From Polynucleobacter finlandensis (GTDB taxonomy: Bacteria; Pseudomonadota; Gammaproteobacteria; Burkholderiales; Burkholderiaceae), in NCBI RefSeq assembly GCF_018881755.1, contig NZ_JACVPS010000006.1, positions 1 to 64,000 on the forward strand: a stretch of 64,000 nt of DNA. Reading direction: 5' to 3'. Shown here piece after piece: positions 59,622 to 64,000 of this stretch. Positions within the stretch are counted from its first letter, which is position 1. Each line of letters starts with the position of its first letter. A program made the position numbers and the translations under genes. A model generated the notes under the pieces. It ran no database searches. It was not told where the DNA came from and worked only from the letters and a program-made list of their open reading frames with translations.

Positions 59622-60647
59622 TTAATCGACTTTTGCACCAGAGTCTTTTACAACTTTAGTCCACTTGGCAATTTCATTCTTAATGTAGGCAGTAAATTGC
59701 GCTGGCGTATTGCCAACCGGCTCTGCACCCATTGCAATATATTTTTCTCTTACCGATGGGCTATTGATGGCTTTGATGAGTTCCGCACTTTCTTTATTGA
59801 CAAGATCTTGCGGCATTCCAGCGGGACCAACAATTCCGAACCAGGCAGTTGCTTCATAGCCAGGTAAATTCGCTGCTTCAGCAACGGTTGGCAAATCCGG
59901 GAATGCAGGTGAGCGTTTTAAGCTAGTCACCGCCAGTGCTTTTAGGCGCCCAGCACGAATGTAGTTAATGCAAGAAGGTAAGTTATCAAACATCAGGTCT
60001 ACATTGCCCGCCATGAGATCAGTCACGGCCGGCGGACTGCCCTTATAAGGCAGGTGGGTCATGAATGTCTTTGTCATTGACTTAAATAGTTCTCCGGCCA
60101 TATGGGTTGAGGTCCCATTGCCACTAGAGGCCATATTGATTTTTCCTGGATTGGCCTTAGCGTAGCGGATTAAGTCATTGACGGAATTGATATTGTTCTT
60201 TGCTGCAAATTCTGGGTTGAGCACAATGACGTTTGGTAGCTCAGCAGCAAGCGTAATCGGTGTGAAATCCTTAACCGGATCAAAAGGTAATTTGCCACCA
60301 CCTTGGGTATACAAAGGAAGGTTAATTCCGTGCGTGCCAACTGACGCCATGAGCCAGGTGTATCCATCAGGCGGAGATTTTGCTACCGCTTCAGCGCCAA
60401 TATTTCCACCGGCACCTGGTTTGTTATCGATGACAACAGTCCACTTCGCTGTAGAAAGTAATTCATTCTGAATGGGGCGCGCAATGTTATCAGTTGCGCC
60501 ACCAGCAGGAAACGGAACAACTAAACGAATTGGCTTATTCGGAAATGTACTTTGTGCGTATGCACTGAGTGTGATTGATGCGCAACACACAATAGTGGCA
60601 GCAATGAAACTTGCTGCGCTTGCACATCCATGGTGAATCTTTTTCAT
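59622..60647 (-). CDS. Bug/TctC-family tripartite tricarboxylate transporter substrate-binding protein
   Basis: 341 residues. Signal peptide (ITLSAYAQS) and the family pattern [65 protein letters not shown] and [17 protein letters not shown]. Bug proteins are abundant in Burkholderiales and bind organic acids such as citrate in the periplasm. No TctA/TctB genes are adjacent, so it is an orphan receptor. Ligand unknown. Confidence 0.93.
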
Positions 60648-60691
60648 TTCTGTCTCCGTCTTTATATTCTTTAGCTATATCAAGTATTGGC

Positions 60692-60700
60692 TTATACACA
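60692..60700 (+). other. DnaA box (TTATACACA)
   Basis: Perfect match to the TTATNCACA DnaA-box consensus, in AT-rich DNA about 100 bp from the double box. Confidence 0.6.
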
Positions 60701-60732
60701 ATGTAAACGATTATTTCTTTACTGGTAAGTAG

Positions 60733-60763
60733 TGCCTATTATTTAGGCAAGACAGGTCTGTCT
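60733..60763. repeat. Two adjacent perfect inverted repeats
   Basis: TGCCTA, spacer TTATT, TAGGCA (60733-60749), followed without a gap by AGACAG, spacer GT, CTGTCT (60750-60763). Both can fold as hairpins or act as dimer-binding sites. No T-run follows, so they are not ordinary terminators. Confidence 0.8.
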
Positions 60764-60798
60764 ATACAAATCGGTGACTTACGAAAACTTTTGTCGAT

Positions 60799-60821
60799 TT
60801 ATCCACAAAAGCTGTGGATAA
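60799..60821. other. Inverted pair of perfect DnaA boxes
   Basis: TTATCCACA (60799-60807), spacer AAAGC, TGTGGATAA (60813-60821): two perfect consensus boxes in opposite orientation, forming a 9-bp-arm palindrome. In chromosomes and plasmids such boxes bind DnaA at origins, at DnaA-titrating sites or in promoters. Confidence 0.75.
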
Positions 60822-61016
60822 GTTTTGGTCCCGCCGACAGGCTAATATCCATAAGGGTGCTAACCTACAAACTATATAGAATAAGGCTCTGCGGGTAGGA
60901 CATTTTTTAAGAGTGTACAGCTTTAGTCTCAATAGTGACCACCTAAATTATTCATAAATCCACTTGACAAATAAGTTCGACCCCTGATATTGGACACTTT
61001 AAAGGATATTGCTCTG

Positions 61017-61154
61017 TCACTCTTCGGGATCGTTGTTAAAACGGATGCCACAGGGCAAAAGTAGGGGTTCTTTAAGCTCCTTCACAGCACGCCTATAAGC
61101 GACTTCCATTACCTTCTCTAGAGTTATCTTCTCAGCAAGGCTTCCTAGCTGCAA
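61017..61154 (-). CDS. Possible small gene or gene remnant
   Basis: The minus-strand frame is open from 61205 to a stop at 61017. From TTG 61154 it gives 45 residues (MQLGSLAEKITLEKVMEVAY, then RRAVKELKEPLLLPCGIRFNNDPEE), or 30 from ATG 61109. The residue makeup looks protein-like, and it lies downstream of the polymerase-like gene on the same strand. No clear ribosome site. It may be a small third gene of the cassette, or the end of a decayed one. Confidence 0.35.
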   Translation of the reverse strand: MQLGSLAEKITLEKVMEVAYRRAVKELKEPLLLPCGIRFNNDPEE

Positions 61155-61325
61155 TACTTTTAGGACTTTTATCTCGCATCTATCATTAATAAACTCAGAA
61201 CTAAATCAATAATGAACTCAGAGGGCAACACCACTTTAGGTTACAGAGAATTAACTTAAAAATATGTCCCTATAAAGGGGTGGGGGTTGCCCCCTCGTTA
61301 CTAAGGTTAAGCTAAGGTAGTAATG

Positions 61326-61391
61326 AGCAATACCACCCCCAGTATTAGATCTAGTAATACCACCATAAGAAGTAACTAGATTAGTAATACC
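61326..61391. repeat. Iteron-like direct repeats
   Basis: AGCAATACCACC (61326), TAGTAATACCACC (61352) and TAGTAATACCAGA (61382) repeat with 27- and 30-bp spacing; the last two are each preceded by AGAT or AGATC and CTAG. A related AAGTAATACG occurs at about 63603. They lie just after the polymerase-like gene. Confidence 0.6.
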
Positions 61392-61419
61392 AGAGGTAGC
61401 TACTGGTCAACTAAAGGTA

Positions 61420-62709
61420 TCAATGCATTTCTTTGGTTACCTTGGAATCCCACCCAATAATGTGACTAAATGCTTCATGCATACATCCTTCAGGATGCTT
61501 GGAGTTCTGAGCGACTAAGAGTCCATCATGCAAGATCACGAAGCCATTATCCCGATCCATCATATTCATGACTGCTCTACCGATAATCCGGGATTCAAGA
61601 TTCATGAGCTCCATTCCAATCTCAGACTTTAGGTATTTCTTCAATATGGGTAGGTGCAGGATGAGGATGGTTTTAAGGGTGCTGTAACTGAGCTTGCATC
61701 CAGGAGGCATTAGACCTTCTGGACTATTTTTAAGTAAGGATGAGCTATTGAGTAGGGCATAAGCCAAAGTCTTAAACGTCCCCCTAAACTCTTCATAGCC
61801 AGGTATTAGAAAGGGGTCTTCTTGCGGTGCTTCTGTAGCGCCATCTCGATAGAGGAGCAGGTTGTAATACATAGCCTGGTAATCCAGATCCATAACCTTC
61901 TGCCCATCAATGCGGATTAGATGCCTCTCTTTAGCGGGGATGTTTTGCGCCCAATGTCCAAAATACCTTCCCCCTCGCTTAATCGTCCCTTGGTTAAAAA
62001 TTCGATGGTAGGAGGTACTAGATCGATCACATAAGTGGTCACCCGAATACTCAATCGTATGGCTCAGTAGGTAGTCATTGATCTTTCTAACGAAGGGGCG
62101 GATCGATTCCTTAATTTCTTTGCCCATATTTGTGGTGTCAGTGTAGTTAACTAACTCAGATGAGGACGAGGGCGTCTTTCTTTTAGATTTAAGAATAATG
62201 ACTTCCGTCTCCGGTCTAACGCTAAAACTTCCCCATTCCAGATCCCCATAGCAAATATCTTCAGTAAATCGAAGGGATGCCGCCTGTTGCACCAATGAAG
62301 TATCGCTTCCTCCGAAGGTTGAGCGAATCTGAATCATCTTCTTGGTTCCTACATCTTGGATGACTACCTTGGCATCGACAAGTATTTGAACTGCCCTAAC
62401 CACTAGTCTCTCAGTTATGAACTTGGGAAGATAGCGACTAGCTTGAAAGTTCTTCTTACCCATTGGATAAATTAAGGATGAATACCCCTGACTTTCCGCA
62501 TTTAGGAGATTGGCAAGAATATTAGTGACGATTGATTTAAGAAGGCGACCAGAGGATTTTCTGGTGAAGTCCTTGAGGTAATCCTGAAGATAGACCTCAA
62601 ATATTTCCTCAATGATTGATTCTGCTTCTGACCCTTCATTTGCCAGCAAGTTGTAATCAACCATCAGCGTGTCGGTTACAAGCTTGAAGTCCTTCTTAAC
62701 TCTTTTCAA
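61420..62709 (-). CDS. Compact family-A-type polymerase-like protein (TV-Pol-like)
   Basis: 429 residues from TTG 62709. The C-terminal half has the superfamily A motif series in order: QNIP (255-258) before motif A (VMDLDYQAMYYNLL, Asp 274/276); motif B RGTFKTLAYALLNS with Arg309-x3-Lys313 and Tyr317, as in the O-helix of DNA polymerase I; and motif C FVILHDGLLV with Asp395. Distances A to B (37) and B to C (82) are shorter than in Taq (53 and 122). No exonuclease domain is seen; residues 1-220 are unassigned. Motif C has HDG where DNA polymerases have HDE. A TTGA overlap couples it to the zinc-finger gene. Function inferred. Confidence 0.7.
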   Translation of the reverse strand: MKRVKKDFKLVTDTLMVDYNLLANEGSEAESIIEEIFEVYLQDYLKDFTRKSSGRLLKSIVTNILANLLNAESQGYSSLIYPMGKKNFQASRYLPKFITERLVVRAVQILVDAKVVIQDVGTKKMIQIRSTFGGSDTSLVQQAASLRFTEDICYGDLEWGSFSVRPETEVIILKSKRKTPSSSSELVNYTDTTNMGKEIKESIRPFVRKINDYLLSHTIEYSGDHLCDRSSTSYHRIFNQGTIKRGGRYFGHWAQNIPAKERHLIRIDGQKVMDLDYQAMYYNLLLYRDGATEAPQEDPFLIPGYEEFRGTFKTLAYALLNSSSLLKNSPEGLMPPGCKLSYSTLKTILILHLPILKKYLKSEIGMELMNLESRIIGRAVMNMMDRDNGFVILHDGLLVAQNSKHPEGCMHEAFSHIIGWDSKVTKEMH

Positions 62710-63434
62710 GTGATCCCCACCAAAGCAGACCGAACTCGTTTATCCAATTCTTCCTTCGAATCTATTCTCTTGGCAATAGCTTTACTAAATTGATACCCCG
62801 ATACACCGAAGACCTGGTTGAGAAGGTCGTATACGGTATTAACTTCAGGCACTCCCATCTCAACAACGTACTTGACTATTTTCTTACCTGTTCTCTTATT
62901 GATCAGAGCAGGGTCAACAAAGTGACTGATGCGTCTCACATGTTTAACCAGTTGATGCTTGTAAGACCTCTGATTAACAAAGATCCCAGGGGTGCTATCT
63001 TCAAAGCGCTGGAAGGATACCCACAGTAGCAACACCTCATCCATGGGAACATTCTTTAGAAGGCTCTGAAGCACCTGGTAGCCCTTGCGCTGACCTTTGA
63101 CACCCGCTAGTCCATCTGCTTGTTGCTTCAGGTATCTATCCACAGCTTTACCTAGGATCACCCAGCGTTCTCCCAAGGCTAATCTGAGGTCATGAAGAGA
63201 GGGGTTGCTCTTATTTGCCTCAAGTAACTCTTGGATTTCCTGGGTTGACCTCTGGAGACTGCTGATCTTGATCGACACTTGCATCGGGTCGCCCTTAAGG
63301 TGGAACCCGTGCTCATGCTTATTGCAGTATTTCTTGCCACTTTTCCTGTGTAGGGAACATCCAGCAATCTGACACTTACGACCGTACACCTGGGACATCT
63401 TTGCTTCACGTAAGGAGACTGGTGGCTGAGTCAT
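62706..63434 (-). CDS. Zinc-finger protein, partner of the polymerase-like protein
   Basis: 242 residues. Residues 18-51 hold CQIAGCSLHRKSGKKYCNKH and then a HLKGDP turn, the Cys/His finger seen beside HNH nucleases and in phage DNA-binding proteins; no HNH core follows. The rest is helical and basic with no motif I know (VSFQRFEDSTPGIFVNQRS, KHVRRISHFVDPALINKRTG). Its TGA overlaps the TTG of the polymerase-like gene. Probably binds nucleic acid and helps load or target the partner. ATG at 63398 is an alternative start. No clear ribosome site; GGTTAC repeats precede the start. Confidence 0.6.
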   Translation of the reverse strand: MTQPPVSLREAKMSQVYGRKCQIAGCSLHRKSGKKYCNKHEHGFHLKGDPMQVSIKISSLQRSTQEIQELLEANKSNPSLHDLRLALGERWVILGKAVDRYLKQQADGLAGVKGQRKGYQVLQSLLKNVPMDEVLLLWVSFQRFEDSTPGIFVNQRSYKHQLVKHVRRISHFVDPALINKRTGKKIVKYVVEMGVPEVNTVYDLLNQVFGVSGYQFSKAIAKRIDSKEELDKRVRSALVGIT

Positions 63435-63667
63435 GGTTACCCGGTGGTTACAGGTAGTTAACTCAAGATCCTGGTTGGATTCTTAATAGCTCTTGCCAAT
63501 AGCCATATTAAGGCACTTAGGGGTCAGGCTGGGAAGTGGGGTGGTTGAGTCAGTTTATGGGCGTCTCTAAACGGCCAGCAGTGGCCTTTGGAAAGTTAAA
63601 AAAGTAATACGCCATTAGCCATTTGAAATACGTAATTCAACGTAATCTTGGATGTGGAGATCTAGAT
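63435..63667. other. Intergenic stretch upstream of the zinc-finger gene
   Basis: 233 bp. Next to the start lies GGTTACCCGGTGGTTAC, a repeat of GGTTAC, and further on ATACGTAATTCAACGTAAT, a repeat of ACGTAAT. The promoter of the cassette should be here but I cannot place it. Confidence 0.4.
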
Positions 63668-63901
63668 TTAACGGCGCCGTCTTTGGTAATTTATTGTCAA
63701 AAGAAGAAACAAAAACATACCTACAATTAATGTCAACAAAGTAGTGCTATCACCCAAGCTTTCATAGAATACTGGACCGCCTAGGGCTGTCAGAATCCCA
63801 AAAATGAGCAGCGATACACCAAAAAAAGCGGTAATAGAAATAAGCCACAATTCAGTATCGCCTACTTGTACTTGACGTTTTTCGTTATAGATCTGATCCA
63901 T
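63668..63901 (-). CDS. Small two-helix membrane protein
   Basis: 77 residues. Two transmembrane helices (LWLISITAFFGVSLLIFGIL and LLTLIVGMFLFLLLTINY) and a basic tail (YQRRRR). GGAG lies eight bases before the ATG. No family recognised. It stands alone at the right edge, with its own promoter, and does not obviously belong to the polymerase cassette. Confidence 0.7.
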   Translation of the reverse strand: MDQIYNEKRQVQVGDTELWLISITAFFGVSLLIFGILTALGGPVFYESLGDSTTLLTLIVGMFLFLLLTINYQRRRR

Positions 63902-63933
63902 AGCAATTCTCCTTTTTCGAAGTCCTGAGACCT

Positions 63934-63961
63934 ACATTACGCCGACACAGGTAAATGTCAA
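63934..63961 (-). promoter_or_regulatory. Probable promoter of the small membrane protein
   Basis: On the minus strand a perfect TTGACA (63961-63956) lies about 55 bases before the start. A weak -10 (TAATGT, 16-bp spacing) follows. An inverted repeat GTAAAT/ATTTAC overlaps the -35 side. Confidence 0.5.
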
Positions 63962-64000
63962 TAAATATTTACGAGTAAAAAATGTATTGCATTGCAGAAT

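Follow-up and report, generated by a model that had tools for sequence, protein, structure and literature searches.

TV-Pol was proposed in 2008 as a superfamily A family of primase-polymerases (PMC2579912). In that description the palm carries two metal-binding Asp residues, a beta-hairpin with an absolutely conserved Arg precedes motif A, the fingers are inserted after the first palm strand and hold a conserved Asp and an RxxxK motif, the thumb consists of two antiparallel helices, and the exonuclease domain is absent (PMC2579912). The genes lie in neighbourhoods with a gamma-delta resolvase, a lambda-type integrase or a transposase, and phage Ma-LMM01 was listed as carrying a TV-Pol (PMC2579912). 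A comparable arrangement is that of the CcPol-MP and PolA-SSB systems of SCCmec and Bacillota, in which, in the sections of PMC7581432 and PMC10061031 at hand, an A-family polymerase gene and an adjacent small partner gene reside in an integrated element that also encodes a site-specific recombinase. In these sections CcPol of SCCmec needs no second protein for primer extension, but its priming requires MP (PMC7581432; PMC10061031), which is given as an OB fold in PMC7581432.

The window, by which we mean the whole stretch of 64,000 nucleotides of Polynucleobacter finlandensis DNA analysed here (positions 1 to 64,000 of contig NZ_JACVPS010000006.1), contains on the minus strand at 61420..62709 a gene with a TTG start, encoding a 429-residue protein with a helical N-terminal domain (residues ~28-148) followed by a polymerase core (~165-429). 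An earlier note on this DNA had proposed a TV-Pol-like A-family polymerase, and this proposal was supported, because the fold, the conserved motifs and the recombinase context agree with the account of Iyer (PMC2579912). We found two metal-binding Asp residues, the hairpin Arg, the fingers Asp with RxxxK, no exonuclease domain, and recombinases as neighbours. As in that account, the protein falls among stand-alone polymerases of 400-600 aa with an extra N-terminal domain and a core without exonuclease, encoded beside resolvases or integrases in proteobacterial mobile elements (PMC2579912). The evidence thus supports a TV-Pol-like enzyme, a minimal A-family polymerase whose gene resides in an integrated element. 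The locus goes beyond the TV-Pol description in that no helicase was seen in the island and in that the island is tRNA-integrated, with an empty site in relatives; it differs from the arrangements in the main text of PMC2579912 in having an overlapping gene for a zinc-finger/helical partner.

We evaluated the catalytic motifs across 80 aligned rows, including a few near-identical ones, for which relatives were taken from 11 phage records, 3 plasmids, 9 viral-contig loci and 60 genome-contig loci. Asp276 of motif A was invariant (80/80), as were G247, R248 and R262 (80/80 each), and R236 was present in 79/80 rows. The fingers Asp, D298, was conserved in 76/79 rows covering the position, both residues of R309-x3-K313 in 77/78, and H394 and D395 in 75/75 of the rows covering them. 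Position 274, which the earlier note had taken for a metal ligand, was Glu in 71/80 rows, and the metal-binding pair is, from this conservation, predicted to be D276 and D395. The two residues suspected there of altering nucleotide choice, the Gly of HDG and the Tyr at K+4, carried no special signal across the aligned relatives: position 396 after the HD was Ser in 61, Gly in 8, Ala in 5 and Cys in 1 of 75 rows, so that HDG is normal variation, and position 317 (K+4), Tyr in the window protein, was Asn in 38 and Leu in 25 of 77 rows and is not a family feature.

The order of the motifs (QNIP, A, B, C) was borne out both by conservation in the 80 rows and by profile-profile alignment (hhalign, free placement), in which WQNIP, motif A, R-x3-K and HD fell in register with 28 Pol I sequences over 206 columns. 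The family profile had 60 members, representing 60/73 loci; the 13 omitted were fragments, duplicates, contig-edge rows and three plasmid loci. The score was 31.8, whereas shuffling the columns 40 times gave at most 21.6, reversing the Pol I profile gave 15.4 and two unrelated families gave 18-19; the register with Pol I exceeds chance. The alignment upheld the motif register above all controls but returned a low HH-suite probability (7.6%), so that the polymerase claim is carried by the fold match. Pfam, NCBIfam and PADLOC gave no match for the 429-residue protein, and a sequence-profile search of the PDB gave none at E <= 10. The predicted absence of an exonuclease domain held, in that Pfam matched none in the window protein and the structural model showed none among its domains; two Pfam families appeared at chance level among the 60 members.

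The AlphaFold model of the polymerase was confident (pLDDT 90.7, pTM 0.89), and by this model the 429-residue protein has the palm and fingers core of an A-family polymerase, as the note had anticipated. All 50 matches listed by Foldseek against the PDB were Pol I-type polymerases (best 1xwl, E 8.1e-5; 12 chains at E <= 0.001 among the matches listed), with no unrelated family among them, and TM-scores to the solved polymerases were low (0.27-0.34). VIA aligned the model with the apicoplast polymerase (Z 11.6, 223 residues, rmsd 3.6 A), T7 DNA polymerase (Z 11.3) and yeast mitochondrial RNA polymerase (Z 10.4), at an identity to Pol I-type structures of ~12% over the matched region. The protein is thus like Pol I and T7 DNA polymerase (PF00476) in its palm and fingers fold with motifs A, B and C in register, and unlike them in its ~12% identity, in giving no Pfam match and in lacking exonuclease domains. 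In the model the conserved R248 sits in strands E235-238/E246-250 before motif A, residues 306-321 form the fingers helix, and a long helix (194-214), a candidate for one of the thumb helices, precedes the core. Among viral models the best matches were phage proteins without assigned function (BFVD, Aeromonas phage 4L372D, E 2e-21), and the fold also matched the Zamilon virophage replication protein (E 3.3e-4), which we take to be akin to Sputnik V13.

In PHROGs the polymerase matched phrog_4756, of unknown function (E 4.9e-28), as did 60/60 members of the wider alignment, placing it in the same protein family as proteins of Aeromonas, Vibrio and Shewanella phages, whose loci differ from the window in having no zinc-finger partner (3/3 loci examined). 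Most phage copies of phrog_4756 are unannotated. The Ma-LMM01 record gave no match to the 60-member profile, nor by single-sequence comparison, which likewise missed this genome's own Pol I; Ma-LMM01 gp134 and gp178 were discarded as candidate relatives, resembling by eye a DnaG-type primase and a split Pol I. The polymerase is sporadic, occurring in 2/200 genomes of the family, 5/369 of the class and 24/398 of the phylum, the window genome included each time. At the 73 polymerase loci a tyrosine integrase was found at 58, a serine recombinase at 18 and either at 61, on stretches of unequal length (4 to 21 kb) and with a few loci near-duplicates; the 61 include 52 of the 60 genome-contig loci, and the median distance to the nearest such gene was 855 bp.

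The polymerase gene had been described as outside any recognisable phage or plasmid and with no integrase nearby. Both statements have to be revised, as the gene is enclosed by two att repeats together with a tyrosine integrase 9.9 kb upstream, beyond the window end, in a tRNA-Arg island. The left att site GTCCCGCCGACAGG (60828..60841) is a 14-bp copy of the 3' end of tRNA-Arg(CCT), and the right copy GTCCCGCCGACAGG forms that 3' end itself (contig 74101-74114, beyond the window). Between them the island extends over 13.3 kb to contig 74,114, its left 3.2 kb lying in the window (60842..64000). The tRNA-Arg(CCT) gene (contig 74101-74173, minus strand) is the insertion site and stands beside the integrase gene (contig 72586-73950, minus strand; PF00589, E 9e-15), with the polymerase pair at the opposite island end. 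The left flank, made up of the gene for a TctC receptor and conserved non-coding DNA, was present in some form in 117/122 genomes of the genus; in 11/12 relatives it joined tRNA-Arg exactly at the 14-bp repeat, forming an empty site, and in the twelfth it reached tRNA-Arg within ~80 bp. Island G+C was 42.9%, against 47-48% in the flanks. With an integrase, a tRNA site, direct repeats and an empty site in relatives, the layout is that of a classical tRNA-integrated island.

Cytochrome c, YceI and lipoprotein-like genes lie between the integrase and the polymerase pair. Encoded at contig 64130-67189 are two cargo proteins, a cytochrome c of the di-haem type (PF00034) and a member of the YceI family (PF04264); another, of 77 aa, is membrane-like and has no significant family (63668..63901, minus strand). 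Among the larger island proteins scanned, which comprised the integrase and the cytochrome, YceI and lipoprotein-like open reading frames, no helicase was found.

Directly upstream of the polymerase gene, also on the minus strand, is a gene for a 242-aa protein (62706..63434) with a zinc-finger-like N-terminus (C21-x4-C26-x10-C37-x2-H40) and a mostly helical remainder. Its TGA stop lies within the TTG start of the polymerase gene in a TTGA overlap (62706..62709), an arrangement that suggests coupled translation of the two proteins. The structural model of the partner was mostly helical with two short strands and is of moderate weight because its pLDDT was 69.2 (pTM 0.60) and only four sequences entered it. 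A PDB profile search with the partner gave only TrwJ at E 0.17, which we treated as empty. Where PolA-SSB has an OB-fold SSB as partner, we thus found a predicted finger and helices, and no COG3378/DUF927 helicase was found among the island proteins scanned. In the sections of PMC7581432 and PMC10061031 at hand, the partner in CcPol-MP and PolA-SSB has an OB fold and no zinc, and a helicase gene (COG3378/DUF927) comes after it, whereas here the partner is zinc-finger/helical and no such gene stands after the polymerase.

The partner family was first seen at loci of N. galegae and viral contigs, and the window copy is a distant member. A held-out profile built without the window copy found the window partner at E 8e-5 among ~4,500 open reading frames, and the window partner as query found the Microvirga (6e-7) and L016 (3e-4) copies; comparison with this single sequence found no relatives in viral contigs, and none were found in phage records. 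The partner profile matched 10/398 phylum genomes, seven of them strongly (E < 1e-50), and in all seven the partner adjoined the polymerase on the same strand, at distances from overlap to ~710 bp, preceding it in five genomes and following it in two. Three pairs in all had the partner downstream (L022, G723 and G614). The chance overlap expected between 24 polymerase genomes and 10 partner genomes in 398 is 0.6.

The earlier note had asked whether the zinc-finger gene always accompanies the polymerase, which it does not: it was present at 5/73 polymerase loci (absent at 68) and in 7/24 polymerase genomes (absent in 17). It also occurred without the polymerase, in the stretches of G648 and Microvirga and as a second copy in the window genome, and its absence from most loci and its occurrence alone therefore indicate that it is no obligatory subunit. 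Partner-bearing polymerases nevertheless clustered in two trees, the first built from 77/80 rows and the second omitting 10 earlier rows and 11/24 of L124-L147, some replaced by longer stretches. Partner labels required 3 changes vs 4.9 in the first tree and 7 vs 10.6 in the second, and 0/500 shuffles were as low in each. The window polymerase fell inside the partner-bearing branch in the first tree (SH-aLRT 90). In the second, a branch of 15 held 10/11 partner-bearing rows (SH-aLRT 96) and the window polymerase lay outside it, grouped with G311 on a long branch; the program warned that this join may be false.

The overlapping zinc-finger gene is thus a recurrent, not universal, partner, and apparently a new one. 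We found no description of a zinc-finger partner of an A-family polymerase or TV-Pol in the open-licence literature. The arrangement does not appear in the main text of PMC2579912; the supplement of that paper (TV-PolN, C3RHD) was outside our comparison, so that an earlier sighting is possible. A candidate identity of the partner as a stand-alone TV-PolN was rejected, since a comparison of the two sequences showed no similarity between it and the polymerase N-terminal domain. A general preference of TV-Pol for zinc-type upstream genes (10/35 small upstream open reading frames vs 32/763 controls, p 4e-6) was likewise rejected as evidence, because seven of the ten belong to the partner family, whose loci had in part been included on account of the partner, and because two others (L079 and G301) may be chance.

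The second copy of the partner gene in this genome stands on contig C20 (701-4204 of stretch L166) with genes for a 667-aa Walker A protein and a resolvase (PF00239); genes for a WYL regulator and an HsdM methylase lie nearby. The two copies were 78% identical in DNA over 821 columns, from ~80 bp before the gene to just past the overlap, and the same TTGA junction was followed in C20 by the 667-residue protein instead of the polymerase. We label this protein helicase-like on the assumption that its Walker A PPTGTGKS, VIDES and QAMNR stretches are the motifs of such an enzyme; Pfam, PHROG, plasmid and PDB searches gave no support, and NCBIfam a DEXH helicase at E 0.13 only. The two partner proteins were 83% identical (dN 0.12; dS 1.73, near saturation; dN/dS 0.067). 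By this ratio the partner is under purifying selection between the polymerase and helicase-like settings, so that it was kept alike while the gene behind it was exchanged. As parts that replace each other serve one process in Iyer's argument (PMC2579912), this exchange points to replication.

These observations bear on whether the partner acts with the polymerase. It might instead be a regulator or DNA-binding protein (a remnant of an HNH-type finger, a repressor or a directionality factor) and not a subunit, with the polymerase only extending host primers. Such a role would agree with the lack of the partner beside most polymerases, with its place before a helicase-like gene in C20, and with faint matches of the finger region to HNH endonuclease profiles of PHROGs in two members of the family (E 0.035 and 0.023). 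However, no HNH residues were identified in the partner, and same-strand adjacency recurs in at least four differing arrangements. This repeated adjacency and the TTGA overlap favour joint action, and we hold the regulator reading to be somewhat improbable.

We consider it likely that this TV-Pol copies the excised tRNA-Arg island with the zinc-finger partner acting on the template or origin; the island would thus probably bring along, in this pair, its own machinery for copying and perhaps for priming. The att repeats, the integrase and the empty sites argue that the island entered the 3' end of tRNA-Arg(CCT) via its own tyrosine integrase. Once the island is excised, the polymerase would replicate it, and the partner would be produced in step with the enzyme, most likely to hold single-stranded template or the island origin and pass it to the polymerase; a helicase would be supplied by the host or by another element. 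By analogy with MP and CcPol in SCCmec, the partner would perhaps permit a primer-free start, and it is from this likeness that we infer priming by the pair. According to PMC7581432, the template is held by zinc domains in DnaG and PrimPol and by helical bundles in many AEP primases.

The product of the polymerase was considered at position 281, five residues after the motif A Asp, which is Tyr here and His in 60/80 rows. By the hhalign register Tyr281 corresponds to E710 of Pol I, given in the sections of PMC7581432 at hand as the residue that discriminates against ribonucleotides, and this position appears more telling for nucleotide choice than HDG or Tyr317. CcPol, in the same sections, retains the Glu and Phe of Pol I (E174, F225), whereas the window protein has Tyr281 and Tyr317 (PMC7581432). 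Replacement of the Glu may loosen sugar choice, and the fold kinship with mitochondrial RNA polymerase (Z 10.4) and the contact of one family member with Pfam RNA_pol (E 0.006) fit a polymerase that makes an RNA or mixed primer. However, an aromatic residue at 281 could equally exclude ribose. A role in defence or recombination of the island in place of replication finds no PADLOC match, and the neighbouring recombinases are the setting of replicating mobile elements; we regard a function of either kind as unlikely. That the polymerase is a decaying, now inactive remnant in a fixed island is very improbable, as against its TTG start, its long branch in the trees and the failure to find a close relative in genus or family (2/200 genomes including its own) stand an open frame of 429 codons with all catalytic residues kept, a confident predicted fold and a partner under strong purifying selection.

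If the polymerase and its partner do copy the island, a bolder version may be put forward, which we think doubtful at present: the pair would be a third kind of primase-polymerase, in which an A-family polymerase becomes primer-independent through a zinc-finger/helical subunit in place of the OB-fold MP, and in which that subunit is an exchangeable template or origin clamp, joined through one overlap junction to either a polymerase or a helicase. Were this true, two elements in one cell could share replisome parts, and if the zinc-finger protein confers priming, A-family polymerases would have turned into primases on more than one occasion, by means of unrelated partners. As far as we found in the literature, including the sections of PMC7581432 at hand, CcPol-MP is the only predicted primase-polymerase that was tested. 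In the present locus the TV-Pol is proteobacterial and its island is defined, with the att sites mapped and the site empty in relatives; the compact two-gene module should be easy to express, and the exchange of polymerase and helicase-like genes behind the partner gene shows how replication modules of such elements are assembled.

Other small genes were observed beside related polymerases. On one viral contig (L021, 1-552) an open reading frame that by eye is RNase HI-like overlaps the start of the polymerase gene; upstream of the polymerase in L174 and L013 are small Cys-rich proteins of another kind (CxxC...GSW...C...C), and in L028 and L065 the upstream protein is rich in neither pattern but is of a Cys/His kind marked by HGG...GP.

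A non-coding stretch of ~100 bases (60738-60841) next to the tRNA-Arg att site is conserved across most of the genus; Rfam gave no match at E <= 1 on 60600-64000. On the chromosome side of this site, at 60799-60821, we observed a palindromic pair, TTATCCACA-N5-TGTGGATAA, whose arms presumably resemble the DnaA-box consensus. The exact pattern was present in 99/122 genomes of the genus, once in each genome listed, with constant arms around a variable 5-base spacer, and the reversed control pattern was found 0 times among the genomes listed. Judged from its sequence, the pair may be a conserved single-copy DnaA-binding site.
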